A stretch of DNA of 64,000 bases from a virus. The stretch spans positions 1 to 64,000 of the IMG/VR virus record IMGVR_UViG_3300043395_002393. One strand, 5' to 3'. The notes under the pieces were generated by a model. That model saw nothing but the letters and a program-made list of their open reading frames with translations. It made no database searches and was not told the DNA's origin. Positions 4,449-45,335 of this stretch are shown one piece after another (within the stretch, counting starts at the first letter, position 1; the number at the start of each line of letters is the position of its first letter). The position numbers and the translations under genes are program-made.

Positions 4449-4865
4449 CGCTGGCGCGGCGTCGCCGGCTCGTTTCGGATTCTCCATCGCCGGCTCGCCG
4501 GCCGGGTCGCGGCGTCTCTGGTTCTCCGGTTCCGGTTGCTGACCGGATCGCCGGTTGACCAGGGCGGAGGCTAGCGGGGCGGGGGCATAGGGGCGCAAGG
4601 GACCCCCGGGAGCCGGCGGCGAGGGGGTACGGGGGCTTGCCGGTGCGATTCGCCAGCGAGACCGACCTCGGGAGCGGTGTGCATACACTGAGACCATTTT
4701 CAGTCCTGAAACCCGAAAACGCGAAATCCGGCTACAGTAAAGGGGAAGGGAACCCCGGACCCCCATACCCCGGTTGCCAAGGGACCCCCTACGGGGGCCT
4801 TCAGGAACCCCTGAATTAACTTGTCGATTGACAGCGCAATTAACGTCCCTATTGTTGCCCCCACC
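4449..4865. other. Intergenic region with hairpins and a promoter
   Basis: No gene. GC-rich inverted sequences fill it: CCCCC/GGGGG at 4,785-4,797 flanked by AAGG/CCTT, and TTCAGG/CCTGAA at 4,800-4,815. These could terminate transcription from the upstream gene. The promoter cassette at 4,828-4,858 follows directly. Confidence 0.5.
4828..4858 (+). promoter_or_regulatory. Sigma70-like promoter, cassette copy 1
   Basis: TTGACA at 4,828-4,833, a 16-base spacer, then TATTGT at 4,850-4,855. The spacer holds ATTAAC, and the block ends ATTGTTGC at 4,851-4,858. The start codon at 4,866 follows 7 bases later, so transcription would begin only about 4 bases before ATG. A second copy with the same spacing lies at 10,440-10,470. 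Confidence 0.55.
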
Positions 4866-5663
4866 ATGAACCCCACCGACCACGCCGCGATGCTGCGGCA
4901 GACATCCGCCCTGATGGAAGAAGCCGCCCGCGCCGTGGAGCGTGTGGAGGAGCTTGAAGCCCAGCTTGAGAAGCACCACGTCAACGGGAAGCGGCTCGAA
5001 GCTGCCATGCCGCCGCCCAACCCGATCCATCTGCAACCGTTAGTGGAGCGAGTTCTCTCTCGGTTGGGTCGGTATGAAGAGCTGTTTTCCGAAAACGAGG
5101 AGCTTCGTCGTGAGAACGCCGGGTTGAGAAGCGAGATCACCTCGCTCGGAAACCACGCCATCTGCCGCTTGAACTTGCTGGGCGATATTCACCGTGTCCT
5201 CGGTTCGGACGGCGGGGAGACGGGGGCGAACATGTTGACGGGAGTCCCGCCCGAGCTGGCCCGGCTGCCGAAGCGGATCGAGCGGCTCATCCGCGAGAAC
5301 GAGACGCTGGCCCGCAACGTGCCGCCCGAACCCTCGGTCACCTCGCTCGACGGGGTGCACTACGCCCAAACGACCGAAGCGGCACCGGAGAAGCCTTTCG
5401 CGTGGACTGGGAAAACCCCAGAAGAGCAGGCGGCTCTGGACGAGCTGAACGCCCTGGCGACCACCTGCCGGATCGTCGGACAACAGTGGTGCTCCACGTC
5501 AGGAAACCGCACCTTGTCGGACGCAGTCCAATTCTACATCGACCACCCGCTCTCGGGTAAGGTGTTGGTCCTCTGCAACGTCAACCAGAACGTCGTAACG
5601 GGGGCCTTGACCTACGAGCCCGTGCGCGTTAGCGATCTCCCCTCTCTCCCCTCTCTCCCCTGA
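4866..5663 (+). CDS. Hypothetical coiled-coil protein (265 aa)
   Basis: Not recognised. Residues about 10-50 and 65-95 are strong coiled-coil candidates (RVEELEAQLEKHH; ELFSENEELRRENAGLRSEI). The C-terminal 100 residues look globular and end in a Pro-Ser-Leu repeat (LPSLPSLP) encoded by a CT-rich tract. The ATG at 4,866 was chosen because it lies 7 bases after the promoter cassette; an upstream TTG at 4,821 would overlap the promoter. The tmRNA begins 7 bases after the stop, so both may share one transcript. Confidence 0.65.
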   Translation: MNPTDHAAMLRQTSALMEEAARAVERVEELEAQLEKHHVNGKRLEAAMPPPNPIHLQPLVERVLSRLGRYEELFSENEELRRENAGLRSEITSLGNHAICRLNLLGDIHRVLGSDGGETGANMLTGVPPELARLPKRIERLIRENETLARNVPPEPSVTSLDGVHYAQTTEAAPEKPFAWTGKTPEEQAALDELNALATTCRIVGQQWCSTSGNRTLSDAVQFYIDHPLSGKVLVLCNVNQNVVTGALTYEPVRVSDLPSLPSLP

Positions 5664-5669
5664 ATTTTT

Positions 5670-6053
5670 GGGTGCCCCGGGTTTCGACGTGATTCCGGTT
5701 CACCAATGTAGCACGCGGAGGTTGATCGGCTGGCCTCCTAAAAAGCCGATCGCAAGACCAACTGGCAACAATGACCAGATCCCCGATTACGCGCCGAGCC
5801 TGGCCGAAGCCGACGAGATCCTCGCCCGCTTCGCGACCGAGCTTGAACTCGTCTGAGGGAGCACGCCCCGGAGCCGGCCGACGCAGGCCCGGGGAAACAA
5901 TGCGTCGGAAAAACAGTCTGCATCCTGCCGATGATGCAGTGGTGGAGGTGACCGGAAACGGTCGCCTTATGGTGCCCGGCGTCATCCGGGACAAGCGTGT
6001 AGAAGCATTGGTGACAGGTGTCGCGGACAGTGGTTCAACTCCACTGGCATCCC
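5670..6053 (+). ncRNA. ssrA: Transfer-messenger RNA (tmRNA)
   Basis: A 384-base tmRNA. The acceptor stem GGGTGCC (5,670-5,676) pairs with GGCATCC (6,046-6,052). The conserved 5-prime core GGGTTTCGACGTGATT lies at 5,679-5,694. The T arm is AGTGG-TTCAACT-CCACT at 6,029-6,045, preceded by the conserved GGAC. Long-range helix P2 is supported by CACCAATG (5,701-5,708) with CATTGGTG (6,006-6,013), and GCACGC (5,711-5,716) with GCGTGT (5,995-6,000). Pseudoknot PK1 is formed by GGAGG/CCTCC (5,717-5,721 with 5,734-5,738) and GATCGGCT/AGCCGATC (5,724-5,731 with 5,744-5,751). CCA is not encoded. tmRNA with SmpB rescues stalled ribosomes and tags the nascent protein; no smpB is seen here. It is flanked by phage-type genes on both sides. 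Confidence 0.92.
5764..5856 (+). other. tmRNA tag reading frame (30 codons plus stop)
   Basis: The resume codon is most likely GGC at 5,764, 12 bases after PK1, a spacing close to that in E. coli. The frame reads GNNDQIPDYAPSLA, continues through EADEIL and ends RFATELELV before TGA at 5,854. The alternative frame beginning GCA at 5,765 has no early stop. Thirty residues is long for a tag, and the end is not the usual ALAA-type degron. Confidence 0.6.
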
Positions 6054-6106
6054 CTTTCCATTTTTGGCTTGTAAAAAGCGCCAGAAACCGGCAAATCCGG
6101 CGGCGC

Positions 6107-6631
6107 ATGAACAAGTCCAACCGATTGTTGAAAGCTGCCTTTGAGCGAGGCTACCGGGTCAATGAGCGCGGCGAAGTAGTGAGCCCGAAAGGGCGAGTGA
6201 GAAAGCCTCAACAGCATCTCAAAAAGTGCGGCTACTGCGTAGCGATCTTCACGGTAGACGATCGTGAAGGGACAAGCTACCCACTCAGAGTCCATCGGCT
6301 GCTAGCCTACCAGATGTTCGGCGACCGGGTGTTCGAGCCAGGAATCGAGGTCCGACACCTCGATGGAAACTCGCTGAACAACACACCTGAAAACATCGCG
6401 CTCGGGACACCGTCCCAGAACGCGCTTGATCGCCCTCCGATCGACCGCAGGCTTCACGCCAGTGTCGCAGGAAAGGCTCAGTCACCGCACACGGACGAAA
6501 CATGGGCGGCTGTTCGTGCGGACCGCGCGGCCGGGATGGGGTACAAGAAGCTCCGGGCAAAGTATGGGATTGGGCTTTCAACCTTATCCTTCCAACTCTC
6601 GAAAACTGCCAAGCGCAGGACTCCTTTTTGA
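6107..6631 (+). CDS. HNH homing endonuclease
   Basis: 174 residues, probably a free-standing homing endonuclease. The HNH core is visible at about residues 75-105: an R-V-H-R-L-L segment, then EVRHLDGNSLNNTPENIALG, the usual H-L-D-G-N...N...N-L layout. The N-terminal part (YRVNERGEVVSPKGRV) resembles the NUMOD-type strand module common in these enzymes. The C-terminal part (GMGYKKLRAKYGIGLSTLSFQLSK) reads as a DNA-binding helix-turn-helix. The ATG at 6,107 was chosen because longer frames run back into the tmRNA. It starts 54 bases after the tmRNA, as if the RNA or its neighbour had been the homing target. Confidence 0.8.
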   Translation: MNKSNRLLKAAFERGYRVNERGEVVSPKGRVRKPQQHLKKCGYCVAIFTVDDREGTSYPLRVHRLLAYQMFGDRVFEPGIEVRHLDGNSLNNTPENIALGTPSQNALDRPPIDRRLHASVAGKAQSPHTDETWAAVRADRAAGMGYKKLRAKYGIGLSTLSFQLSKTAKRRTPF

Positions 6632-6635
6632 CGAC

Positions 6636-7160
6636 ATGAATGCAACAGTGAAGACAGCACAGATGGGCCTCGCCGCAGGTGAGGTGGTGGAAGTGGTCAA
6701 CCGCGGCGTCCGGTCCTGCGTGGTCCGCAGCGGCAACCGCGAGATCAACGTGACGGTGCCGACCGAGGACCTCGACTTCTCGGGACCGATTGACGGGCCG
6801 CCGCCCGAACCGGGCGAAACCAGCGACATTGGAACCACCCCGGCACCGGTGGAGAACGCCGCGCCCTACGACCCGGAGACGGACCCCGCGGTGAAGGATC
6901 TGGACGATCCGAACAACGTCATGCGGTCTGAAAAGACCATCGAGGTCCTGCCGGACTCCTGCGACGAGGAGCTGCCCGATACGATCGGCGGTGAGCCGAC
7001 CAGCGAGGTCGAGTCCAAGCGGACCTTGCTCGATGACGAGCGCGACGTGGATGCGTTCCCGGAAGCCCACACGTCCGCCGACGACAGCGACCTCGACGAG
7101 GAGCTGCCGGAGCCCCAGGGCGGCTGCACCGACGGCGAGAGCTGCGAGGCGTGCCAATGA
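6636..7160 (+). CDS. Acidic Asp/Glu-rich hypothetical protein (174 aa)
   Basis: Not recognised. After a short N-terminal beta-like domain (about residues 1-45, VEVVNRGVRSCVVRSGNREINVTV) the rest is Pro/Asp/Glu-rich and probably disordered, ending with a Cys-containing tail (GGCTDGESCEACQ). Strong acidity suggests a DNA mimic or a chaperone-like or structural accessory protein, but that is inference. It begins 4 bases after the HNH gene stop and ends ahead of the 7,210-7,238 hairpin. Confidence 0.6.
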   Translation: MNATVKTAQMGLAAGEVVEVVNRGVRSCVVRSGNREINVTVPTEDLDFSGPIDGPPPEPGETSDIGTTPAPVENAAPYDPETDPAVKDLDDPNNVMRSEKTIEVLPDSCDEELPDTIGGEPTSEVESKRTLLDDERDVDAFPEAHTSADDSDLDEELPEPQGGCTDGESCEACQ

Positions 7161-15137: not shown

Positions 15138-15623
15138 ATGAAAATTGACGAAACCAAGTTGGCCGCCCTGCACGATTACCTCGTCGCCGGCGGATCGCCC
15201 GAGCAAGTGGATGTCGCCCAGCAGATCGGCGCCGACCCCGACGACACCGAGCAGGTGGACGCCTACGTCGAGGCGCTGAAAGCCCGTTGGCCGGAAACCT
15301 ACGGCGACCCGGAAACCCCGGCCGCACCGGCTCAACCCGCTCGGAAAACGGCCAAGAAGGCGGCGAAAACCGCCACTCCGGCCAGCACCTACCGCCTCCG
15401 CCGCGCCGACGGCACAGTGGTCGCGCTGGAGGTCTTGAAGGTCTCCGACAATGGAACCGTGATCTTGGAGGAGCCCCGTCAAAAGGACCTCGTGACCCTG
15501 CTCCTCCGCGGACGCCAGATCACCGTGGATCTGATCGAACTCCGTGCCAAGCCCGCCGGCTCGATGCTCCACGATCTGCCGGTGACCAAGGTCATCGAGT
15601 TGGCTGAACTCGCCAAGGCGTGA
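15138..15623 (+). CDS. Hypothetical protein, small-terminase candidate by position (161 aa)
   Basis: Residues 1-60 look like a small helical domain (DETKLAALHDYLVAGGSPEQVDVAQQI). A Lys/Ala/Pro linker follows (KTAKKAAKTATPAS), then a beta-rich C-terminal domain (TYRLRRADGTVVALEVLKV). It overlaps the large terminase start (15,620) by 4 bases, the usual place of the small subunit. The sequence itself is not diagnostic; the HTH protein at 3,741 is the rival candidate. Confidence 0.45.
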   Translation: MKIDETKLAALHDYLVAGGSPEQVDVAQQIGADPDDTEQVDAYVEALKARWPETYGDPETPAAPAQPARKTAKKAAKTATPASTYRLRRADGTVVALEVLKVSDNGTVILEEPRQKDLVTLLLRGRQITVDLIELRAKPAGSMLHDLPVTKVIELAELAKA

Positions 15624-17674
15624 TCGACGACGCTCCAAGGTCGGACCCGTTCAGTGGGATCGTGCTCAACCATGATCTCTTGGACTGGTCCGACCCGACG
15701 TTGGATGCCGACGCGGTCACGATGCGGTTGCTCGACTTTCACGACTACTACGACGAGCCCGAGTATGGTGGCCCGGAGCCGGCGGACGCCACGCCGCAGG
15801 AGCTTGCGAAACACCGCATCGCGATCGAGAAGAAGATCCTGTTCGACGCCAAGCGGCCGAACTGGGGTGGCACGAGCAAGTGGGGCAAGCCCTACTTCCG
15901 GCACATGCTCTCCCTCATCAAGCTGGCGTTCCCGGACACCGACATCACGCCGTCCTTGGCCGACGCGGTCATGCTCTTCTGCATGGGCATCGGCGGCGGA
16001 AACAAGAAGCTGGAGCACCTGATCGGCAGCCAGAACTCCGGGAAGTCCGCCGGCGCGATCCGCATCGCCTTCGCGATCATGATCGTCGATCCCGAGTACT
16101 CGGCGGTTTTCGTCGCCAACCCGTTCGACAACGCCGCCGACTCCACGGTCTGGGGCGACGTGGAGGAGCTGTGGGACCAGCTCTGCGAGCACCACCCGAA
16201 CGACACCGGCAAAGGCTACGAGGACGCGACGTGGCTGTTCCCCTGGGGCAAGAAGTACGCCAACCGGCAGCTCGACCTCGTCCCGGGCCTCCCGAAGGCC
16301 GGCACGATCGTCCTGCGGAACGTGAAGCACGTCGGCAAGTTCAAGGGGTCGAAAGGTCGCGGTAAGGACGTGACCCGCGGCGTCATGCTGCTGCTGGTGG
16401 ACGAGGTCAACGAAATCGAGAATCCCTCGTTCGAGACGATGCTCAACAACCTGGTATCTCAGGACCAGTTCTTCGCCATCACCTCCCAGAACTTCAAGGA
16501 CGAGGAGGACATGGGCGGGCGGCTCACTCAACCGGTCGGGCTTTTCGGCGGCCCGTCTTCTTTCGACGACCTCGACATCGAGGAGGACGTGTGGTGGCAC
16601 AGCTCGAAGTCCTCGATCACTCTCCGCTTCGATGGCCATCGCAGTCCGAACGTGCTGGCCCGCCGCACCATCTACCCGAAGCTCTTCAAGATGGAGAACC
16701 TCCAGCGGATGCGGGACGATTACGGCGAGCAGTCGCCGGACTACTTCTCGCAAGTCCGCTCGTTCCCTGTCCGCGGTGACGAGACGAACTCGGTGCTCTC
16801 TCGGGCTAAGCTGAGTGCGTCCCGGCACAAAGACACCTTCTTCACCGTCACAAAGTCCATCGCTCGGGTGGGATTCTGCGACCCGGCGTTCGGCGGACGG
16901 GACAAGGCGGTCTTCGGTTGGATGGAGATCGCCCAAGCCTACATCACCGACGGCGAAGGGAACCAAGAGCTTCAGGAACTTGTGATTTTCCGTGATCACT
17001 TCCGGTCGCTCAAGCTGGTAAAAGGGGCGTGGTTCCCTGGGGATGACAACTATTGGCCGGATCGGATGAAAGCCTGCGGCATGGACATTTCCGACTACAC
17101 CGCCGGCGCCGAGATCAGCTACGAGGACCAGATCGCCATCCAGTGCCGCGAGCTGTGCCTCGCCAACGGTATCCCTTTCGCCAACTTCGGCTACGACTTC
17201 TCGATGCGGCCGGACATCGTCAGCTCCATCAACAAGGTGATGGGGTTCAACAGCCTTGCCTTCGACTACAACCAGGGACCGGAGGGTCACACGATTCAGA
17301 ACATCAAGAAGAACTCGACCGACTGCTGCAAAAACCGCTGCACCGAGCTGGCGTTCCTTGCCGCCGACCTGTTCCTCACCCGGCAGGTCCGCGGTGGCAG
17401 TTTCATCGAGACGGCTACCACCCAGCTCGCCCGAACCCTCTACACGACGGTCAACCGCAAGTACGTCGCCGAAGGAAAGCGCGAATACAAGGCCCGATGG
17501 CAACAGGTCTCTCCCGATCATCGGGACGTTTTGATGGGCCTGACCGGGGTCGCCTTGAAGCGCGGATTCCGTCAGAGCGTCGTGGGGCAGAAGTCGGCCG
17601 GCGGCGGCCGAAGCGTGTGGGACGAAATTACGTCTCGCGGTCTCGGGAAAAAACGGGTAGTGAAGCGCGTCTGA
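15620..17674 (+). CDS. terL: Terminase large subunit
   Basis: 684 residues; packages phage DNA into the prohead. The ATPase has Walker A GSQNSGKS (136-143) and Walker B LLLVDE (257-262), with an ITSQN coupling segment at about 287. The nuclease domain starts near GFCDPAFGG (metal-binding Asp421) and includes a later acidic segment near residue 500. The start codon is GTG inside the 4-base overlap with the upstream gene. Portal and scaffold genes follow in the usual order. Confidence 0.92.
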   Translation: MIDDAPRSDPFSGIVLNHDLLDWSDPTLDADAVTMRLLDFHDYYDEPEYGGPEPADATPQELAKHRIAIEKKILFDAKRPNWGGTSKWGKPYFRHMLSLIKLAFPDTDITPSLADAVMLFCMGIGGGNKKLEHLIGSQNSGKSAGAIRIAFAIMIVDPEYSAVFVANPFDNAADSTVWGDVEELWDQLCEHHPNDTGKGYEDATWLFPWGKKYANRQLDLVPGLPKAGTIVLRNVKHVGKFKGSKGRGKDVTRGVMLLLVDEVNEIENPSFETMLNNLVSQDQFFAITSQNFKDEEDMGGRLTQPVGLFGGPSSFDDLDIEEDVWWHSSKSSITLRFDGHRSPNVLARRTIYPKLFKMENLQRMRDDYGEQSPDYFSQVRSFPVRGDETNSVLSRAKLSASRHKDTFFTVTKSIARVGFCDPAFGGRDKAVFGWMEIAQAYITDGEGNQELQELVIFRDHFRSLKLVKGAWFPGDDNYWPDRMKACGMDISDYTAGAEISYEDQIAIQCRELCLANGIPFANFGYDFSMRPDIVSSINKVMGFNSLAFDYNQGPEGHTIQNIKKNSTDCCKNRCTELAFLAADLFLTRQVRGGSFIETATTQLARTLYTTVNRKYVAEGKREYKARWQQVSPDHRDVLMGLTGVALKRGFRQSVVGQKSAGGGRSVWDEITSRGLGKKRVVKRV

Positions 17675-28110: not shown

Positions 28111-28839
28111 ATGATCGACCTGCGAAATTTCTTCGGCCGAGCCTACGTTCTCAATCTCGACATCCGACCCGACCGCTGGGTTCAGTTCCAAGAGAGAGCT
28201 GCGGCAGCCGGCATCACCGGCTTTGAGCGGTATCGAGCCATCGAAGGAGACAAGTGCCCGCACCCGGCGTGGTGGCGTGCCGGCAACGGGGCCTGGGGCT
28301 GCTTGATGAGCCACCTTCGAGTGGCGCAGGACGCCCTCATGGACGGACTACCGAGCTACCTCGTGTTCGAGGACGACGCGGTGTTCGCGCCGGACTTCGC
28401 CGATCGCCTGCCGGAAATCATGGAGCGCCTCGACGGGGTCGAGTGGGACCAACTCTACCTCGGCGGCCAACACCTCTGGGTCGAGGCTGGCCCTCCGTGG
28501 CCATTCCGCAAGGGTCTCGTGAGCTGCCGAAACGTGAACCGCACCCACGCCTTCGCGGTCAACGCGAGGTTCATGGTGAAGTTCTCGCAACACATCATGC
28601 ACGCCCCGGACTACATCGCCGCGCACGTACCGCCGGTGGAGCCGGACGCCGGCGGGTCCGGTGCGGTCCAAGAGTGGTTCCCGCACATCGACCACCAACT
28701 CGGGAGGCTGCACGAGACGCGGCAGTTCAAGATCCTCGCCGCGAACCCGTGGCTTTGTGGGCAGGCGGCCAGCAGCTCCAACATCACGGGAACCGTGAAG
28801 GACGAGGAGTGGTGGAACTCAACTGGATGGGGGGAATAG
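28111..28839 (+). CDS. GT25-family glycosyltransferase
   Basis: 242 residues. Hallmarks of GT25 (LPS/collagen-type sugar transferases): YVLNLDIRPDRWVQF at about 12-26, a GCLMSH segment at about 63-68, and VFEDDAVF at about 85-92, whose Asp pair binds the metal-nucleotide sugar. A later HIDHQLGRL fits the conserved D-H/Q segment. It transfers a sugar from a nucleotide donor to protein or lipid acceptors. Six bases separate it from the poly-Ser protein, and 0 bases from the methyltransferase-glycosyltransferase that follows. The likely acceptor is a virion protein; modification of host surface sugar is the alternative. Confidence 0.8.
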   Translation: MIDLRNFFGRAYVLNLDIRPDRWVQFQERAAAAGITGFERYRAIEGDKCPHPAWWRAGNGAWGCLMSHLRVAQDALMDGLPSYLVFEDDAVFAPDFADRLPEIMERLDGVEWDQLYLGGQHLWVEAGPPWPFRKGLVSCRNVNRTHAFAVNARFMVKFSQHIMHAPDYIAAHVPPVEPDAGGSGAVQEWFPHIDHQLGRLHETRQFKILAANPWLCGQAASSSNITGTVKDEEWWNSTGWGE

Positions 28840-30126
28840 ATGCACACGAGCGTGATTGATTTTCTGAAACGGGTGCTCACGAAGGAGCGTGTCGGCGGGG
28901 CTCGGGTTCTCGAAGTCGGGGCGTTCAACGTCAACGGCAGCCCTCGCGACTTGGTTGAAGAACTCAGTCCTCGCATCTACGTCGGAGTGGATATGGCTCC
29001 GCAGCCTCGGTTTGTTGATCTGGTCCTGAATGCGGAGAACCTGACGGCGCACTTTGGGTTGGCAGCCTTCGACGTGGTGATCTGCACCGAGATGATGGAG
29101 CACGTCGAGAACTGGAAATCCGTCTCGGACGAGTTGAAGAACGTGCTGGCTCCAGGAGGGCTGCTCATCGTGACCACGCGTTCCGAAGGGTTTCCTGTTC
29201 ACGGCTACCCGTCGGATCATTGGAGGTACACCACCGAGGATCTAGGAGCGATGTTCGGGGAGTTTCGCCCGATCTACCTCGGAGACGATCCCGATCCGTT
29301 GTCTCCTGGGGTGTTTTTTGCAGGGGTGAAGCCTCCTGAAGCGCCCCTGAAACTGGCGAACCCCACGACTGTTGAGGTGCCCTATCACTGCGATCTAGCG
29401 TTTCACGAGCGGTTGAGACTCCGGCAAACCGATCCGAAGGAGGTCAGCCCTTTGCGCACCTTCTACCACGTCGCGTGCATGGGGTCTTGGCGGCAGGTGT
29501 TCCGCGATCAAGTCGCTATTCTCGGCGACCTCGGCCTGCAACCGGAATGCCATGTTCTCGGCACTTCGGAGGATTTTGCCGAGGTCGTCGCGCAGTTCCC
29601 GGACGCGGTTCATCACGGTCAAAACTTCACCCTCTACGAAACGCCGACGCTCGAAGCGGCCCACAGATGGGCGATTGAGAACCCAACGGGCGCCGTTCTC
29701 TACCTGCACACCAAGGGGGTGAGCCAGCCCCAAGACGAGGGCAAGCAGGCGTGGAGGATTCTCATGGAGGAGGCGCTGTTGCGGGATTGGGTGGGGGCTC
29801 TCCGCAGCTTGAGCCACTACGACATGGTGGGGCTGAACTGGATGGCCAATCAAGATTTCCCCCACTACTGCGGCAATTTCTGGATGGCTCGGAACGATTG
29901 GCTCGCCTCGCTGCCGTCACCACAGGATTACCGGGCAGCCGGTGGACCTTGGATTGCCGGAAACCCGTGGGAGCGGATGCACGCGGAGATGTGGCTGGGG
30001 TCGCGACCGTGGCATCACATGAGGTCGCTCCGGTTCCAAGGCGAAAGACTTTGGGAGCGTGATCGCGCTACGGAACTCTTGGACCCGGTCGGAAAAGAGA
30101 GATTCGAGAAGTTCATCCGAAGCTGA
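28840..30126 (+). CDS. Two-domain SAM methyltransferase / glycosyltransferase
   Basis: 428 residues. Residues 1-165 are a class I methyltransferase: motif I RVLEVGAFNVNGS, acidic end of strand 2 YVGVDMAP, then FDVVICTEMMEHVENW and LAPGGLLIVTTRSEGF. Residues about 180-428 look like a glycosyltransferase of the kind with VLYLHTKGVSQPQDEGKQAW, DMVGLNWM and HYCGNFWMARNDWLASLP. It starts directly after the GT25 stop. The two genes form a sugar-modification pair placed inside the tail operon, probably elongating and methylating the same glycan. Confidence 0.75.
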   Translation: MHTSVIDFLKRVLTKERVGGARVLEVGAFNVNGSPRDLVEELSPRIYVGVDMAPQPRFVDLVLNAENLTAHFGLAAFDVVICTEMMEHVENWKSVSDELKNVLAPGGLLIVTTRSEGFPVHGYPSDHWRYTTEDLGAMFGEFRPIYLGDDPDPLSPGVFFAGVKPPEAPLKLANPTTVEVPYHCDLAFHERLRLRQTDPKEVSPLRTFYHVACMGSWRQVFRDQVAILGDLGLQPECHVLGTSEDFAEVVAQFPDAVHHGQNFTLYETPTLEAAHRWAIENPTGAVLYLHTKGVSQPQDEGKQAWRILMEEALLRDWVGALRSLSHYDMVGLNWMANQDFPHYCGNFWMARNDWLASLPSPQDYRAAGGPWIAGNPWERMHAEMWLGSRPWHHMRSLRFQGERLWERDRATELLDPVGKERFEKFIRS

Positions 30127-36488: not shown

Positions 36489-39400
36489 ATGCCTCGCATC
36501 CCTTTCTCGGATCTCGCATCCGCCCCGGAGTTCCGGTCGCTCCTGCTCGAAGAGCAGCAGACTGTCGCGTCGAACTACTGGGACGAGGTCGCCGCGGAGC
36601 GCCCCGAAGCCGCGCAGTTCTTCACCGAGGTCCGCGACATGTCGAAGTCGCTGTTCGATCTCAAGGCGCGGCGGAGCGATGCGGCCCCCATCCAGCGGCG
36701 CTTCCTCGACGCCGAGGTCCAAGACACCGCGTTCATGGTCTCTCTCGGGGAGGAGCTTGCCGCGGGAACGCTGACACCCGAAGGTCGGGACGAGGCGCTA
36801 CGCCTCCGCGCCGCCGAGCAGGCGGACCACAAGGCTCGCATCGACAAGATGCGGGAGCTGACCAACCCGGAGGCGGCGGATCGCGTGGCCCCGCGTCTGG
36901 CCGGGCTGGAGCAGACGGCACTGGCCGGCGGAGTCTTCGGATCGACACCGTTCAACCAACGGTTCATGGATGCTACGACCGACGCGGACTCGGTCGGCAC
37001 GAGCCGCCAAGCCTACGAGGCGCTGCGCAGCCAGATGACTGAAGACTACGGTCTGGAGCCGGGCGAAGTGGACGATCTCATCAAGCACCGGCTCGGGTTC
37101 CAAGAGAAGCCGGTGAGCCGCGACGCCCTCGGCGTCCCGCACATCAAGCCGGAGGTCCTGGCGCAAGGCCCGGACGCCGTGAAGTCGGCGATCCTCAACT
37201 CCGACCTCCCGTGGCGCGAGAAGCAGCGGATGACCGAGTCGTCCGATCTGCGCGAGAGGATGGGGAGCTACTACCAGTCCACCTTGGAGCGCGTGAAGCA
37301 GGACCACCCGGAACTCGCCGGGCAGCTCGGTCTCGACACCGTGGACGACCCGCAGGCGGGCTACGCCGCGCTGGTGTCTTCGCTCAACCAGACGGGTTTC
37401 TCCAAGCTCGCGAGCGGTTTCACCGCCAACATCCTCGGAGCCGCGGAGGAAATCGTCCCGCGGGTCTTGGCTGGCGAACGCGCAGGGGCGGAAGAGCGGC
37501 GGCAGGAGATCCGCGAAACGATGCAGCCGACCCGCCGCGCCATCGAGTCGGCCAACCAGCTCTCGCAGGAGTTCTACGCGGACCAAGGCACTCTGTGGGG
37601 CGTGGACATGTCCTCGTTCGGGCAGGGTCTCGGCAGCGTTCTGTCGGCGACCGGCTTGGGAGTTCTCACCGGTGGCGCCAGCCTGCCCGTGAGCGCCGCC
37701 CGCGTCGCCACCATGGGGCCGACCGGTCTGCGGATGCTCAACGGCGCGAACAGCGTGCTGCGGGCGTCACCGGGCATCGGGCTCGCCATGGCGCAGACCG
37801 GCACCTCGACCTACGAGCAGGCGATCAAGTCCGGCATGTCCGAAGAGGAGGCTGGCAAAGCTGCAACGCTGTCGGCCGCCACCGAGGGCGTCATCACCGG
37901 GTTGTTCAGCCTTGTGGGCGCGGGCGGTGTGGAAGCCGTCGGCGAGCAGCTTGTGGGCACCGCAGCCCGTCAGGCCGCCCGCGACAGCGCCAAGAGCGTT
38001 GCCCGGACCTTCGGCGAGAAGGTCGGCAAGGGGCTTCTCGGCGAGCAGTTCGAGGAGAACCTCATCACCGCGTTCGATGCGGCCACCGTGCAGGCTCGCA
38101 TCGACCCCACGATGACCGTGGACGACTTCAAGAACCAGCTTCGCGAGACGGCGCTGGTCACGCTCGCGGTGTCCGGCCCGACCGTGACGGCCGGCTCGCT
38201 GCGGGAGACTCTGGCCGAGAAGGCCACCTACGAACAAAGCACCGATGAAATCAAACTCCGAGCAGACCTCAACCTCGCTGAAGCCTCCGACCCCCTCCGC
38301 ACCGCCGTCCGCCGCGAAGGTGGGATCGGAACGACCGTCGGCGAGCGGCTTCGACGAGCGGCAACTCAGCCAGGCGAGGCAAATCTTCCACCCGCCGGGC
38401 AAGCCGCGGCCGACACCACGGAAGACGGCGGAGCACCTGCTCCAGGAGCACTTGAACCTGTCGCGCCGGGAGGCACGGAGCCTGTGGCTCCGGCTCCAGT
38501 CGGAGGCGAACAAGCTCCGGCAGTCGGAGGAGCTGAAGTGCCCGGAGTGCGGACTGGAGGAGCCTCCGAGCCCGTGCTGGTGCCAGCAGATGCCGTGAAC
38601 GAAACACCGGTTCGTGCAACACAAACCGGTTTGAGGGACACAGGTGAGAGACAAACTTCCGGGTTCTCGAAGCTCCGCAAAGCCGTGGGCGCGAACACCC
38701 GACTTCAAGGAGATGTTTTCGGTGACAAGATCGGATTCTCCACCAAAAAGACCGGGGACGAGCCCGGTGTCGAGATGACCTTGGTGCCCGACGAAGAAGA
38801 CCCGAACCGTGCGACCCTGGATGCCATCATCACGCCGCAAGCGGAGCGTCAAAAAGGTGCGGCGACCGAGGCGATGCAGAAGCTCACCAAGGAAGCGGAC
38901 GCGGCGGGGGTCACGCTGGACTTGGATGTCCAACCGCAGCGACTTGTCCCCGAGGGGGAGACGCCGCCGATGTCCGCCGAACAGCTCAAAGACTGGTATC
39001 GCCGTTTCGGGTTCCGGTTCGCGGAAGATTCAAATCGCGGTGTCCGGCTTTCGGATTCTGAGCTCCAGAAGGCTTGGGGTGAAACTCTTCCTGCCTACAC
39101 GGGGGATCTGAACACGCTCCCGGACGACCGGAACTTCTCCGACAACCAGACTCTCCGCGATGTGTTCGAGGAGAATCCCGCCAATTTTGAGGAAGGTCAG
39201 ACCTACTTTGCCGAGTCGGTGTTCACGGTCCAAGACGGCAAACTCAAACGCCATCGCGGAGTCGCCGCCGATTACAACTACCGGACCAAGAAGTTCGGTC
39301 TTCGCAGAGTCGAGGACGTGGTTCCCGAGCCGCCGTCTCAGGTGTTCCACGCCGGACCTTCCAAGTTCACCCCTGAGAGCGTCCAGTTCGACAAGGGCGC

Positions 39401-42400
39401 GATCGGGTTTCACGCGGGCACTCGCGACCAAGCGGAGTTCGTCGCGTCCGGGAAAACCGGCAAGAAGCAAGGCACCATCTCCGAGTTCTCCGTGCAGGAG
39501 ACTTCGGACGACGGGCAACTCCAAACGGAGACGGTGACGACCGACATGCCGTGGGAGCAGCCGGACGCGCTGCTCGCTGAACTTGTTCATCAGGGTCTCA
39601 TCAACCCCGACGAGGCGACTACCTTGGTCGGGACGTGGGACATCTCGGACGAGCACAAGAACGCGGCGATGGCTGCGATCGGCAAAGCGGCTCGCATGTT
39701 CGGCAATCCCGAATTCGCCACGTTGGACGAACCCATCGGGGAGTTCTACACGAACCCCGGCACCTACCGCAACCGCGAGAAACTCGACCAAGTCCGCGAG
39801 CTTCTCATCGAAAGCGGGGTCGGTGCGATCCGCTATCCAAACGATGTCGAGGGAACTGAACCTGGCGAGTCTGTCGCGGTGCTCGACAAGCGAATGTTCT
39901 TCCGAACCACAACCCCAACAACCAATGAAGAAGTCCAAGTCGAAGAAGCAGGTGGGCTACCTCCTGTCGAAGGGCAGCCCGCTGTCCAAGGCCCAGCAGT
40001 CCAAGCTGAAGAAGGAGCTGCACAGCGGCAAGGTGAAGGTGCGCAAGAAGTGACGGAACCGCCGGCGGAGGCGCTGCCCGAGCCGGAGCCGAACATGGAC
40101 GAGGTCTTCGCCACCTTGCGCGAACGGGAACCGACGACTCGCCGGATCAACACCAGCTCACCGAAGTTCCGGGAGCTGGTCACCGAGTTGAAGAACCAGC
40201 GAGCTGCTGCGGCGGCCGGCGGTCTGGCGCAGCGGAAGGCGGACATCGTGACTCAGCGCAAAGAGATCGAGCAAGCCCGGATCGACCGCAACAAAGAGCG
40301 GCTCAAACGCAACCGAGAACGTGCCAAAAATCGACCTCTGGACGAGCATCGGAAGCGGATCATCGAACTTACGAAAGACGAGAGGTTCCCGGAGGGTCGG
40401 AACCCGGACTATGAAGGGGGTTTGCGTGAATGGCTCCGTGAGCGTGGTTACGACGCCAGCATCAAGAAAAAGGGTTTCCTCGACGGACTACTCGGCTATG
40501 TGACGCCTTTGCGAGTGGACAAGCGGGATCGCCTCGACGCCCTCCGCGCCACGTTGACGCCGGAGGTCCGGGAGCTGTTGAATGCGATCTATCAGAAGCC
40601 GGAGAAAGGGAAGGAACAGATTCCGATCATCGAAGCCTTCGCCAACACCACGATCGGCGCAGCCATCTTGGAGAATAAGCTCCGCAGCCTCAAATGGTAC
40701 CGTGATCGAAAACTTCCGGCACCTGGTGAATACGACATGCTGGAGGACGCAGACATCCCCGGCCACATTCAGAGTCGAGTGTTCTCTGAAAATGGTCTGA
40801 CTCCAGACGTGCTTGCCAAAAACATCGCAGTCCAGAGTGAGAAAGAGGGGGGCAGTCTGAATCCTTCGGCTGAAGACATCTGGCGTGCGGTTCTCGATCT
40901 CGCGGACGGGAAAGTCACCACCGAAGAGGACGCGGAGTCCTACTACGAACGCAAGCAGCAGCAAGAGGAAGACGCAACCGTGGCTTTTGCCGAGCAGCAG
41001 CTCGAACTCGCCGGATCGGAGAACTCGCAGGTCATCGACATCACCGAGGTTCGCGAGGGCGACCGCTTCACGATCGGCGGCGTCGAATACGTGGCGGCCC
41101 AGGTCGAGGACTCGGAAGGTCTGACGGACAGCTTCGTGCTGAAGGGCGACGGCCCGCTCAATCGGACCTCCGTCACTTCCGACTTCTTCGCCGAAAGCGT
41201 TGTACCTACCGAAGGCTCCCTGGTCGGCGTTGACCCGGCGGAGGTGGAAGCATTCCGCATCACCCAAAACGACCCGGAGTTCTACAACGAGGCGGAGCCT
41301 GCGCCCGCACCTGAGTCTGCACCTGAACCAGCTCCGGTAGCGCAAGAACAACCGGCCCCTCCACAAGCTCAAACGCCGGAGGCCCCGGAAACCCCGCAGC
41401 AGCAAGCCCCCGAGCCGGTTAAGGAAAAACCGCCGGAGGCTAAGGCAAAAGCAGAGCAACCCATCGACGCCGTCGGCACCGCCAACGCGCTCACCGACCG
41501 GCTCCGTGCCAAACGTGGTCTGCCGCCGCGATTCGCGCCGGCCCGCCTTGGCAACGAGCAGGCGTGGGACGCGGCGATGGACCGGATCAACGCCGCCCCA
41601 GGCGTGGCGAGGAAGCTGGTGGACGAACTCAAGAAGTCGCTGCGGTCCATCGACCCGGTCGAAACCGCGATGTTCGCCCACGAAATGCTCGTTCGCGAGA
41701 ACGCTCTCGATGACGCTCTCGACGCCTACAACGGCAATCCGACCGCGGAAAACCTCAAGAAGGTGCAGCTTGCCGAGACTTACCGGAATGAAGCCGTTCG
41801 GACGGCGGAGCAGATCGGCACCATCGAAGGCCGAGCCTTGCAGGCCCGCAAGATCCTCATCCACCAGGACTTCTCCTTCGGCCGCATGGCGGCGATGAAG
41901 GTCAAGGCTCAAGGCGGCAAGGCGCTGACCGCGGACCAGACCAAGGAACTCGTCGAGTTGCACAAGCAGATGGAAGACGTGCGACGGCAGCTCGAAGCCG
42001 CCAACGCGAAGCTCGCCGAGCAGGAGGCGCAGCAGCTCACGCTGAACATCCAAGTCGAGTTCAAGAACGAGCTGAAGGCCGCCAAGAAGCGCGGCGAGAA
42101 GCCTCTCAGCTTCATCGAACGCAAGGCGGAGGAAGCCCGTGCCCGCATGGCTGCACGCAAGCAACAGGGTCGGTTGAACTCGCTCCCCGTGGACGAGTTC
42201 CTCGACATCTCCATCATCGGCGTCTCCTACATCGCCAAAGGCTTCAACACGATCGGCACCTTCACGTCCCAACTGGTCAAGGATTTCGGTCGCAAGTATC
42301 TCCCCTTCGCCGGCGACATCTTCGCGAAGTCGCAGGAGCTTTACGACGCCGCGGCACCGTCGAGCCGGGTCAAGCCCAAGGAGGACATCCTGAACGCCAT

Positions 42401-45335
42401 CGACGGCGACGCTCCTCTCGACGGCAAGGCGATCTACCAGCTCGTCCGGCACTACATCAACGAGGACGTGGAAGGAGCGACCTTCGACAACGTGATGGAG
42501 GCGGTGCTGCGGGACCTCAAGGAGTTCTACCCAGACCTCGATCGCCGGCAGCTCCACGTCGCCTACTCGAACTACGGCAAGGTCACCCAGCCAGATCCCG
42601 CGGAGGATGCGAAGAAGGCCCGCGACTACCGGGCGCTGGCTCGTCTCCAGTCGCAGCTCGAAGACGCCCAGCGCGGGCTCGCCCCGCTCAAGACGGGGAT
42701 GCAGCGAGACCCCGCGGTCCAAGCAGTCCGCGACTTGGAGAAGCAGGTGCGTGACACGATGAAGCGCCTCGGTATCAAGCCGACCAACGAGAACACCCAG
42801 CGCAAGAACCAGCTCGATGCCATCAAGACCCGGCTGCGCAATGAGTTCGAGGACCTCGACAAAGCGGTGCGGAGCGGCACGCCGCGGCCGGCCTACCAGT
42901 CGCAGATCGAGTATGACGAGGAGGCCAAGCGGCTCAAGCAGATGCGCGACGACCGCAAGGCCGACTACGACGCGATCTTCTCGGCACCGGGGCTCACCCA
43001 GGAGCAGCATCTCGAACGCGCCGAGAAGCTGCTGGACCGCCGCATCGCGGAAGAGCGCAAGATGCTCGCGGAAGGCGTGCTCAAGCGCATCCGGGACGTG
43101 AAGATGGGTCCGTGGACCCCCGAGCTTCGGGCTCGCCAGCGGGAGCTGGATCAGCTCAAGGCCGATCGCCGCGAGCGACTGAAAGCCTCCAAGCCGAAGA
43201 AGCCGGAGGACCTCAAGAAATACGAGCGCGACTTGGCATCGCTGGAGCGCCGCATCAAGGAGGAAGAGGCGCTGCTCGCCGCGGGTCTCACCGCTCGCCA
43301 GAAGGACTTCCGCATGGGGCGCTGGAGCCCCGAGCTGGCCGAGATGCAAGTTCGTCTGGACGCCCTGCGGAACCAACGGCGCGAGCTGGCCAAGAGTCTC
43401 CGACCGAAGAAGGACGAGGCTGCGGCAGCCTACGAGAAGGCTGTCAAGGCGATCGAAGCGAGCGTCCAGCGGTACAAGGACATTCTCGCCGGCATCGCGA
43501 AGCCAGAAGCCGGGAAAAAATACACCCCGGACGCCGAGATGCTCGCGCTCATCGACCAGCGTGACGCGCTCCGGGATGCGGTCGCCGAGATGCGGGAGAG
43601 CGATCCGTCGCGCCGTGAGAAGCGCAAGCAGGATCTCATCCGGCAGCTCGACCGGTCCATCGCCGAGATCACCCGCAAGATCCAGGACGGGGACCTCTCG
43701 ACCAAGTCGAAGAGCGATCCTTTCGCGAGCGACCCGGACGTGGCCCGATTGCGCGAAGCACGGGACCTGCTCAACAAGACGGTCGCGGAGATGCGCCGGA
43801 ACGCGCTACCCAAGCGCAGCCCCGAGGAGATCGCGATCAATCGTGATCGGAACATGCTCCAGCGCAAGATCGAGAAGCTCGAAACGCGCATCCGCACGAA
43901 GGACTACTCGAAGCCAGTGAAGGCTCCGAAGCCCGACTACGCCGAGCGGGACGCCCTGCTCAAGCGAAAGAAGGAGCTGGAGGCGCAGTTCAACGACGAC
44001 CTACTCCAGGCCGAGCTGGCGAACCGCAGCCTCGGGAAGAAGATTTTCGACAACACCACGGATGTCGTGTTCGGGGTGTCGCGAGCGATGCTCACCTCGT
44101 TCGACGCGGGCGCCTTCGGCCGCCAAGCCGGACTGGTCAACTTCATGCGCCCCGGTCTCGCCCTCAAGAACCTGCCGGCCAACTTCGCCTTCACCGAGAA
44201 GGCCGCGACCCGCTACGAGACGGCGTTGGAAAGCGACCCGCTGTTCGCCCGCGCCGAGGCCGCCAAGCTGGCGCTGACCACCTGGCGGCCGGGCAGCAGC
44301 CTGTCCGATCGCGAGGAGGTCTACCGCAGCCGCCTGGCGAAGAAGATCCCCGGCGTCGGTGCGTCCGAGCGTGCCTACGTCACCTACCTCAACGTGGTCC
44401 GATTCAGCTATTTCAACAAGCTGGTCGAGTCCCTGCCGGTGACCGAGCAGACCGAGGAAAACATGAAACGGATTGCATCTTTCGTGAACACGATGACGGG
44501 TCGTGGCAACCTCGGGAAGATGGAAGCCGCCGCGGCGGCGCTGGCTTCGGTGTTCTTCTCGCCGAAATACTGGTGGAGCCGCCTCCAGGTTCTCGGTGGG
44601 TTGGTCTACCACCCGCTCGACGCGCTGAGCGGCTTCCGCCTCGGTCCGAAGGAGACCGTCTCCGCCCGCAAGATCATCGCCGGCGAGTACGCCCGCCTGA
44701 TCGGATCGGTCGGCTTGGTGTTCAGCCTGCTCGCGCTGGCCAAGTTCGGCTTCGGTTTCGACGATGACGAGTTCGAGGTGGTCGCCGATCCTCGCTCCAG
44801 CGACTTCGGCAAGATCAAGATCGGCAACACCCGCATCGACTTCATGGCGGGCTTGCTCCAGAACGTCGTCTTCATCTCGCGCATGGTGACCGGCGAGAAG
44901 GTTACCGCCGGCGGGGAGGTCAAGGCGATGTCGGGACCGGACGCCGGCTTCAAGGAGACCCGTCTGGGCGAGACCATTCGCCTGCTGCGGACCAAGCTGT
45001 CTCCGGCCGCCGGGTCGATCGCCAATGCCCTCGACGGCGCCGACGTGGTCGGGAACAAGTTCAACTGGGAGACGGAGATTCTCGGTTCCTACATCCCGAT
45101 GTCCGCTGCGGAAACCTACGCCTCGATGCGGGAGCTGGGGATCGCCCCAGGCGTTGCGGCCGGCCTGCTCGGCTTCATCGGTTACAGCGCCAACACCTAC
45201 GGCGGCGAGGAGGAAGCCAACATCGAGCAGGACATCATGACCGGCGTGTTCGGCGTGGACCAGTCCCGCTACGAGAAGGAGGAGCGGGAGACGGTCTACA
45301 AGCTGCCGAAGGCGAAGCCCCTACCGTCGTTCTAA
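36489..45335 (+). CDS. Giant polyvalent internal virion protein (2,948 aa)
   Basis: Longest gene in the window. Residues 1-590 are helical with two weakly hydrophobic Gly/Ala segments near 380-470. A Pro/Ala/Gly linker lies at about 590-705. Residues about 763-845 look like a GNAT domain (ERQKGAATEAMQKL, then LKDWYRRFGFRF). Residues about 951-1,143 (SQVFHAGPSKFTPES; GAIGFHAGTRDQAEFV; a C-terminal AVLDKRMFFRT) resemble an ADP-ribosyltransferase-like module. After an acidic linker come coiled coils and an APEPAP linker near 1,600. Residues about 2,518-2,948 are the C-terminal domain common to phage polyvalent proteins (LTSFDAGAFGRQAGLVNF; ERAYVTYLNVVRFSYFN; NTMTGRGNL; FFSPKYWWSRL) with one membrane segment (GSVGLVFSLLALAKFGF). 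Probably ejected with DNA; enzymatic parts would act on host targets. Confidence 0.75.
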   Translation: MPRIPFSDLASAPEFRSLLLEEQQTVASNYWDEVAAERPEAAQFFTEVRDMSKSLFDLKARRSDAAPIQRRFLDAEVQDTAFMVSLGEELAAGTLTPEGRDEALRLRAAEQADHKARIDKMRELTNPEAADRVAPRLAGLEQTALAGGVFGSTPFNQRFMDATTDADSVGTSRQAYEALRSQMTEDYGLEPGEVDDLIKHRLGFQEKPVSRDALGVPHIKPEVLAQGPDAVKSAILNSDLPWREKQRMTESSDLRERMGSYYQSTLERVKQDHPELAGQLGLDTVDDPQAGYAALVSSLNQTGFSKLASGFTANILGAAEEIVPRVLAGERAGAEERRQEIRETMQPTRRAIESANQLSQEFYADQGTLWGVDMSSFGQGLGSVLSATGLGVLTGGASLPVSAARVATMGPTGLRMLNGANSVLRASPGIGLAMAQTGTSTYEQAIKSGMSEEEAGKAATLSAATEGVITGLFSLVGAGGVEAVGEQLVGTAARQAARDSAKSVARTFGEKVGKGLLGEQFEENLITAFDAATVQARIDPTMTVDDFKNQLRETALVTLAVSGPTVTAGSLRETLAEKATYEQSTDEIKLRADLNLAEASDPLRTAVRREGGIGTTVGERLRRAATQPGEANLPPAGQAAADTTEDGGAPAPGALEPVAPGGTEPVAPAPVGGEQAPAVGGAEVPGVRTGGASEPVLVPADAVNETPVRATQTGLRDTGERQTSGFSKLRKAVGANTRLQGDVFGDKIGFSTKKTGDEPGVEMTLVPDEEDPNRATLDAIITPQAERQKGAATEAMQKLTKEADAAGVTLDLDVQPQRLVPEGETPPMSAEQLKDWYRRFGFRFAEDSNRGVRLSDSELQKAWGETLPAYTGDLNTLPDDRNFSDNQTLRDVFEENPANFEEGQTYFAESVFTVQDGKLKRHRGVAADYNYRTKKFGLRRVEDVVPEPPSQVFHAGPSKFTPESVQFDKGAIGFHAGTRDQAEFVASGKTGKKQGTISEFSVQETSDDGQLQTETVTTDMPWEQPDALLAELVHQGLINPDEATTLVGTWDISDEHKNAAMAAIGKAARMFGNPEFATLDEPIGEFYTNPGTYRNREKLDQVRELLIESGVGAIRYPNDVEGTEPGESVAVLDKRMFFRTTTPTTNEEVQVEEAGGLPPVEGQPAVQGPAVQAEEGAAQRQGEGAQEVTEPPAEALPEPEPNMDEVFATLREREPTTRRINTSSPKFRELVTELKNQRAAAAAGGLAQRKADIVTQRKEIEQARIDRNKERLKRNRERAKNRPLDEHRKRIIELTKDERFPEGRNPDYEGGLREWLRERGYDASIKKKGFLDGLLGYVTPLRVDKRDRLDALRATLTPEVRELLNAIYQKPEKGKEQIPIIEAFANTTIGAAILENKLRSLKWYRDRKLPAPGEYDMLEDADIPGHIQSRVFSENGLTPDVLAKNIAVQSEKEGGSLNPSAEDIWRAVLDLADGKVTTEEDAESYYERKQQQEEDATVAFAEQQLELAGSENSQVIDITEVREGDRFTIGGVEYVAAQVEDSEGLTDSFVLKGDGPLNRTSVTSDFFAESVVPTEGSLVGVDPAEVEAFRITQNDPEFYNEAEPAPAPESAPEPAPVAQEQPAPPQAQTPEAPETPQQQAPEPVKEKPPEAKAKAEQPIDAVGTANALTDRLRAKRGLPPRFAPARLGNEQAWDAAMDRINAAPGVARKLVDELKKSLRSIDPVETAMFAHEMLVRENALDDALDAYNGNPTAENLKKVQLAETYRNEAVRTAEQIGTIEGRALQARKILIHQDFSFGRMAAMKVKAQGGKALTADQTKELVELHKQMEDVRRQLEAANAKLAEQEAQQLTLNIQVEFKNELKAAKKRGEKPLSFIERKAEEARARMAARKQQGRLNSLPVDEFLDISIIGVSYIAKGFNTIGTFTSQLVKDFGRKYLPFAGDIFAKSQELYDAAAPSSRVKPKEDILNAIDGDAPLDGKAIYQLVRHYINEDVEGATFDNVMEAVLRDLKEFYPDLDRRQLHVAYSNYGKVTQPDPAEDAKKARDYRALARLQSQLEDAQRGLAPLKTGMQRDPAVQAVRDLEKQVRDTMKRLGIKPTNENTQRKNQLDAIKTRLRNEFEDLDKAVRSGTPRPAYQSQIEYDEEAKRLKQMRDDRKADYDAIFSAPGLTQEQHLERAEKLLDRRIAEERKMLAEGVLKRIRDVKMGPWTPELRARQRELDQLKADRRERLKASKPKKPEDLKKYERDLASLERRIKEEEALLAAGLTARQKDFRMGRWSPELAEMQVRLDALRNQRRELAKSLRPKKDEAAAAYEKAVKAIEASVQRYKDILAGIAKPEAGKKYTPDAEMLALIDQRDALRDAVAEMRESDPSRREKRKQDLIRQLDRSIAEITRKIQDGDLSTKSKSDPFASDPDVARLREARDLLNKTVAEMRRNALPKRSPEEIAINRDRNMLQRKIEKLETRIRTKDYSKPVKAPKPDYAERDALLKRKKELEAQFNDDLLQAELANRSLGKKIFDNTTDVVFGVSRAMLTSFDAGAFGRQAGLVNFMRPGLALKNLPANFAFTEKAATRYETALESDPLFARAEAAKLALTTWRPGSSLSDREEVYRSRLAKKIPGVGASERAYVTYLNVVRFSYFNKLVESLPVTEQTEENMKRIASFVNTMTGRGNLGKMEAAAAALASVFFSPKYWWSRLQVLGGLVYHPLDALSGFRLGPKETVSARKIIAGEYARLIGSVGLVFSLLALAKFGFGFDDDEFEVVADPRSSDFGKIKIGNTRIDFMAGLLQNVVFISRMVTGEKVTAGGEVKAMSGPDAGFKETRLGETIRLLRTKLSPAAGSIANALDGADVVGNKFNWETEILGSYIPMSAAETYASMRELGIAPGVAAGLLGFIGYSANTYGGEEEANIEQDIMTGVFGVDQSRYEKEERETVYKLPKAKPLPSF
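38245..38598 (+). CDS. Possible overprinted ORF within the giant gene (117 aa)
   Basis: Opens with ATG in another plus frame across the Pro/Ala/Gly linker of the giant protein. The peptide is better balanced than the linker: helical basic stretches (RKTAEHLLQEHLNLSRREARSLWLRL) and a zinc-like CPECG...CWC end. No RBS is evident. It may be a real overlapping gene, a relic of a formerly separate gene, or a by-product of GC-rich codons. Confidence 0.3.
   Translation: MKSNSEQTSTSLKPPTPSAPPSAAKVGSERPSASGFDERQLSQARQIFHPPGKPRPTPRKTAEHLLQEHLNLSRREARSLWLRLQSEANKLRQSEELKCPECGLEEPPSPCWCQQMP
39925..40053 (+). CDS. Overprinted small basic protein within the giant gene (42 aa)
   Basis: ATG at 39,925, stop at 40,051-40,053, in a different frame from the giant gene, which here encodes only an acidic Glu/Gln/Gly linker. 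The peptide (MKKSKSKKQVGYLLSKGSPL, ending KKELHSGKVKVRKK) is typical of small Lys-rich phage proteins that I recall from other genomes, with a conserved SPLS-A-Q-x-KLKKELHSG core. The protein-like frame is therefore this one, and the giant frame is tolerant here. Confidence 0.55.
   Translation: MKKSKSKKQVGYLLSKGSPLSKAQQSKLKKELHSGKVKVRKK

Follow-up and report, generated by a model that had tools for sequence, protein, structure and literature searches.

A one-piece phage tmRNA gene whose 30-residue tag holds a conserved module found in many phage tmRNAs

The one-piece tmRNA of bacteria (Rfam family RF00023, e.g., ssrA of E. coli) is characterized by a tRNA-like domain with a G3-U70 pair, the P2 helix, the pseudoknot PK1, an A at position −4 from the resume codon and a tag reading frame ending in a stop codon. 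The locus reported here has all these traits in common with it, and differs in being phage-borne, in having a 30-residue tag with an internal conserved module, in its C73, in the lack of an encoded CCA and in the end of the tag, which is -LELV and not -LAA. The proposals made so far for phages carrying tmRNA are that they gain rescue capacity or recycle host proteins. Around 2% of the deposited phages have such a gene (PMC4131195; PMC9004378), with 402 of 18,146 in one survey (PMC9004378). Mycobacteriophages Bxz1 and Wildcat, Bacillus phage G and methylophage Melnitz likewise hold a full tmRNA inside the phage genome, and cases have been described in older work (PMC4131195) and in huge phages (PMC7162821). 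Phage tmRNAs are already known, and the one studied here is a further member. Among cellular genes, the ssrA of Verrucomicrobiota (tags ADSNELALAA and similar) has an identical PK1 sequence, and the head and tail of its tag match those of a phage contig, G007, although its tags have 9–12 residues and no module. The long ssrA tag of Mesoplasma florum, which is read by mf-Lon, is a precedent for a longer tag with a different protease (PMC9382460); however, it is cellular, unrelated in sequence and ends in NYAFA, and a protease link for our tag would be by analogy.

The sequence analyzed (hereafter the window) was a stretch of 64,000 bases from an IMG/VR virus record with a length of 64,458 bases. 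A sequence-only reading of it had placed an ssrA gene at 5670–6053 and had named a covariance-model search as the check. This search (Rfam cmscan) confirmed the gene on the plus strand at 5670–6056, over the full model (RF00023, 1–374), with 89.9 bits and E = 1.3e-33 against a gathering cut-off of 47 bits, and it was the sole Rfam match within the 64,000 bases. The 3′ end of the gene is the discriminator base at position 6053, which coincides with the end coordinate first proposed, and CCA is not encoded. ARAGORN called no tmRNA in the window with default settings; with loosened settings it recovered the same gene and read the tag as GNNDQIPDYAPSLAEADEILARFATELELV followed by TGA. At the DNA level, the tmRNA of the window had no match in INPHARED. 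The locus is a full-length one-piece tmRNA gene, with the following parts.

5670..6053, plus strand: one-piece tmRNA (ssrA) gene (RF00023, 89.9 bits; ARAGORN with loosened settings)
5670..5676, plus strand: 5′ strand of the acceptor stem, GGGTGCC, pairing with 6046–6052 and containing the G3 of G3-U70
5700..5716, plus strand: 5′ strands of P2, 9 bp and 6 bp (5700–5708/6006–6014 and 5711–5716/5995–6000)
5717..5751, plus strand: pseudoknot 1, stems 5717–5721/5734–5738 and 5724–5731/5744–5751 (the latter 8 bp)
5764..5856, plus strand: tag reading frame of 30 residues, GNNDQIPDYAPSLAEADEILARFATELELV (resume codon GGC, stop codon TGA at 5854–5856, A at −4)
5791..5832, plus strand: conserved phage tag module, APSLAEADEILARF (tag alignments; predicted helix at tag residues 13–27)
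5995..6014, plus strand: 3′ strands of P2 (paired-segment comparison)
6029..6052, plus strand: T arm (AGTGG TTCAACT CCACT) and 3′ strand of the acceptor stem, GGCATCC (Rfam model, pairing)

All the stems named in the sequence-only reading were found, namely the acceptor (7 bp), P2 (here 9 bp and 6 bp), PK1 (8 bp) and the T arm. That reading did not mention the 30-residue tag, in which the peculiarity of this tmRNA lies. The acceptor stem forms seven of seven pairs, G3-U70 included, and the T loop is TTCAACT. An A at −4, the base on which the choice of tag frame is reported to depend most (PMC2481249), precedes the resume codon in the window (CAACT, then GGC) as well as in all 15 representatives of the long-tag group described below. 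When the 40 pairs in six segments were compared with those of the syntenic tmRNA of the related contig G004, eight compensatory and two one-sided changes were found and no broken pair. This pattern is the signature of selection on RNA structure and argues for a working RNA; taken with the cmscan E-value, the eight compensatory changes without a broken pair rule out chance.

It must be noted that the discriminator of the window tmRNA is C73 and not A73, the usual alanine identity base, which was not treated here as tmRNA-defining. In E. coli tRNA-Ala, C73 modulates charging without blocking it (PMC6451123), and it was therefore counted as a weakening and not as an exclusion. The window copy also scores below its relatives with the Rfam tmRNA model (89.9 bits vs. 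105–128 bits), and on both counts this tmRNA could be weakened. A poorly charged RNA of this kind would suit a decoy that sequesters SmpB and thereby inhibits trans-translation in the host, a role that has been suggested for the RNA of mycobacteriophage DS6A, which consists only of the tRNA-like domain (PMC4131195). We consider such an inhibitor very improbable here, since the decoding part, the resume signal, the tag frame and the pseudoknot, none of them needed by a decoy, are all kept, and both the compensatory changes and the constraint on the peptide shown below speak against it.

The tmRNA lies among phage genes, whose arrangement is as follows.

4821..5663, plus strand: upstream coiled-coil gene, syntenic in relatives
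6107..6631, plus strand: HNH endonuclease gene, inserted directly after the tmRNA and ahead of the following gene; not present in G004
6636..7160, plus strand: downstream phage gene, bounding the tmRNA/HNH insertion site on the right

Seven related viral contigs were recruited with a 684-residue protein of the window (15620–17674), in which the motifs GSQNSGKS, LLLVDE and CDPAFGG, read by eye, suggest a terminase; it had no family or PDB match, and its predicted structure (pLDDT 48) was too low in confidence for use. In G004 a tmRNA of 127 bits occupies the same place, fitting precisely into the interval from GAAGTTTC to where the following gene starts, while in G001, G002 and G003 both flanking genes abut directly (...GAAGTTTCAACACAATGAAAGC), which is an exact empty site. 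In the remoter relatives G005 and G007, the tmRNA is tens of kilobases away from the terminase-like gene and on the opposite strand. The order coiled-coil gene, tmRNA, HNH gene had been described from the letters alone as internal to the phage, with the proposal that the phage may run its own ribosome-rescue RNA; the flanking order kept in related viral contigs and the empty junction in three relatives support this reading. The lookup of smpB, also proposed there, found none in the phage (whose records may be incomplete) and none in 29 records of module-bearing loci; the phage tmRNA would therefore have to use the SmpB of the host.

The same reading had offered as the alternative a captured host ssrA marking an attachment site. 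Many viral-classed contigs do hold a host-type ssrA, for instance with the tag ANDDNYALAA. Nevertheless, no tyrosine integrase and no serine recombinase or resolvase were found in the eight records of this phage group (possibly incomplete), no 14-mer of the tmRNA is repeated elsewhere in the window, phage genes and no host genes were found on both sides, the junction of these phage genes is empty in relatives, and none of the cellular tags seen resembles that of the window. Captured host DNA is accordingly unsupported and extremely improbable, and the flanks, the empty site and the absence of these recombinases and of repeated 14-mers indicate a phage gene that is gained or lost as a unit and not a piece of host chromosome. 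As additional observations on this genome, the HNH gene at 6107–6631 may be a homing endonuclease moving with or beside the tmRNA; positions 36489–45335 form one open frame of 2,948 residues, a length that is uncommon in a phage of 64 kb; and a glucosyltransferase-like gene (28111–30126) adjoins a SAM methyltransferase gene, possibly for DNA or surface modification.

Regarding the tag, its core is APSLAEADEIL, and its 30 residues compare with 9–12 in almost every cellular tmRNA sampled that shares this pseudoknot. The tags of the relatives are GNNDQIPDNAPSLAEADEILARFSNLALV in G004, ADSNEFAPSLEEANAILSFHGFVERELAAA in G007 and GDNTVSFRNRRSVAQSDLALVA in G005. The last of these, like that of contig L015, belongs to a phage tmRNA that lacks the module, and a phage tmRNA can thus exist without it. 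The window tag falls within the long-tag group, defined by 29–35 residues containing AP[ST][VL][AE]EA[DN]x[IVF]L, and matched the tag profile with 45.4 bits, the only match in the record, this score not being independent since the window tag is among the 28 profile rows. It ends in RFATELELV, where the syntenic G004 tag ends in RFSNLALV, and it has neither the FG[YWF] helix end nor the AA terminus, both of which are common but not universal in the group. The window copy is thus a divergent member, with C73, a tag ending in -LELV and the FG[YWF] end missing. In G007, the tag DNA corresponds to a verrucomicrobial tag (head GCAGACTC.AACGAG, tail CTTGC.GC.) with around 60 bases inserted in frame, and from this comparison the tag resembles an ordinary one whose head and tail are separated by the module. 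Structure prediction placed a helix at tag residues 13–27, with a pLDDT of 88 over residues 11–20, which carries modest weight in so short a peptide. The tag had no match in PHROGs or Pfam, and its profile gave only chance-level helix matches among PDB sequences (P450, glutamate dehydrogenase; E ≥ 0.1).

The module is not confined to this group of phages. A scan of viral contigs with the PK1 sequence, which is blind to the tag, returned 12 loci, all of them tmRNA, and the motif was present in three distinct groups of these: G004, G007 and the L014 group (GKHQFAPTVAEADAILARFGYAEAGELAAA). A search of 2.9 million viral contigs with a protein alignment of four tags, and thus by the peptide alone, gave 14 loci, all 14 being tmRNA genes; the 13 tested exceeded the Rfam tmRNA cut-off (71–150 bits) and the fourteenth was G004. 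A second scan with ten tags gave 69 loci. In 57 of them the 5′ core of tmRNA was found 96–111 bases upstream of the tag, several of the remaining ones being truncated by contig ends or near copies of confirmed loci, and ARAGORN independently called a tmRNA in 39. Based on their flanking genes (around 1.5 kb per side), the approximately 70 loci fall into 15 unlinked gene neighborhoods. The long-tag group ranges from 29 to 35 residues, most module tags keep the AA end, and the module of around 20 residues follows the pattern [FMLYN]AP[ST][VL][AE]EA[DN]x[IVF]L..FG[YWF]. The tag profile matched 16 of 16 phage records (42–65 bits), with a single match per record that always lay in the tmRNA, and mimicry of a phage protein was rejected on this basis. 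Shared T4-like kinship was also rejected as the cause of the spread, with gp23 in only 1 of 27 records; this sole gp23 T4-type phage with the module (L110/L077, a 98 kb contig) has its tmRNA within a tRNA cluster with 12 or more members.

Other observations were made in these scans. Phages L172 and L207, which have tRNA clusters, have tmRNAs with a different long tag, GKAKNVVNAIFGRGSRNESFVGGELALAA, which does not resemble the module. The many viral-classed contigs with a host-type ssrA (L163–L220; ANDDNYALAA and similar) are probably prophages at ssrA sites. ARAGORN with default settings missed 30 of the 69 loci (L086–L154) and often truncated long tags, and surveys of phage tmRNAs based on this program may undercount and misread long-tag tmRNAs.

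Outside these contigs, the deposited phages differ: a tblastn search with four tags gave no true match to the module among 50,697 phage genomes on deposit, and none in plasmids. In a sensitivity control at the same database size, the queries recovered 43–69 of the 69 known loci, and the negative result in deposited phages is therefore a sensitive test. One tag-like match, in the fecal phage record MT839445, was discarded since ARAGORN shows no tmRNA there. Among 388 Verrucomicrobiota genomes no module tmRNA was found, the best tag-profile match (24 bits) lying inside a 284-residue frame, and among 392 Planctomycetota genomes no tag-profile match passed 0.001. When bacterial genomes were scanned with the PK1 sequence, 46 loci were obtained, the majority from Verrucomicrobiota (with tags like ADSNELALAA) and also from Planctomycetota and Hydrogenedentota; none had the motif, and their tags were almost all of 9–12 residues. 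We infer from these searches that the module is phage-specific, in the sense of not being found outside phages among the sets searched. The motif was not found in print within the literature searched, and the shared module is, to our knowledge, undescribed.

Selection on the module was analyzed in 15 representatives with less than 80% identity. Over 16 codons, pN/pS was 0.30 in the tag frame vs. 1.44–1.47 in the two other frames. As the scan is biased toward conservation at the first eight codons, the eight codons outside the scan pattern were considered separately, and gave 0.43 in frame vs. 1.19–1.36 out of frame, in a set whose confirmation step still favors similar sequences overall. Judged from these substitution patterns, selection acts on the module as a peptide. 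Conservation due to RNA structure is ruled out by the frame-specific constraint, and separate translation from an ATG before APS by the F, L, Y or N found there in many members.

These results bear on the possibility that the gene is a plain auxiliary tmRNA, which would provide only extra rescue capacity with an ordinary degron, the module being an inherited passenger without a role. Phage tmRNAs with ordinary tags are indeed common (our scans; PMC9004378), the tag peptide was reported as not critical in an E. coli phage plaque assay (PMC2481249), and the AA end is retained in most module tags. A passenger, however, would not keep a pN/pS of 0.30–0.43 across about 70 loci in 15 unlinked neighborhoods, nor preserve one internal motif while both ends vary, and we regard this explanation as rather unlikely. 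Less likely still is a role in the nascent chain, in which a tag of 30–35 residues approximately fills the exit tunnel and the helix module sets release or pausing there. The uniform length (29–35 residues) and the predicted helix would agree with it, but no known arrest motif was recognized, length by itself is weak evidence and other phages have shorter tags.

On balance, the reading that we hold to be probable is that of a working phage tmRNA which writes an ordinary rescue tag together with a selected helix module, most likely a docking site. The phage tmRNA would be transcribed together with the surrounding phage genes, charged with alanine by the host AlaRS, as the kept G3-U70 suggests, and loaded with host SmpB. 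During infection it would enter ribosomes stalled on non-stop or cleaved mRNAs and add Ala-GNNDQIPDYAPSLAEADEILARFATELELV to the stalled protein. This tag would derive its head (similar to GNN or ADSNE) and its tail (similar to LAA or ALV) from a rescue tag of the ordinary type, with a module of around 20 residues, predicted to be an N-capped helix, inserted in it. A docking site is the simplest reading of the module because the conserved helix stands between two tag ends; the candidate partner would most likely be a protease, an adaptor of one or some other factor, and proteins tagged by the phage would meet a fate different from that of the host-tagged ones.

We thus infer that the module is a helix-forming recognition signal, specific to phages, which supplements a rescue tag of the ordinary type. 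More tentatively, and with less than an even chance in our estimation, one peptide signal in many unrelated phages may redirect the proteins of stalled ribosomes from host degradation to a fate chosen by the phage, the candidates being an adaptor, a protease other than the usual one or a use that the phage itself makes of them. In practice, the module is a sequence mark by which phage tmRNAs can be found where ARAGORN overlooks them or cuts their tag short. The presence of a module conserved as a peptide in many phage neighborhoods and in none of the searched cellular genomes suggests that, for these phages, the label matters beyond the release of the ribosome.
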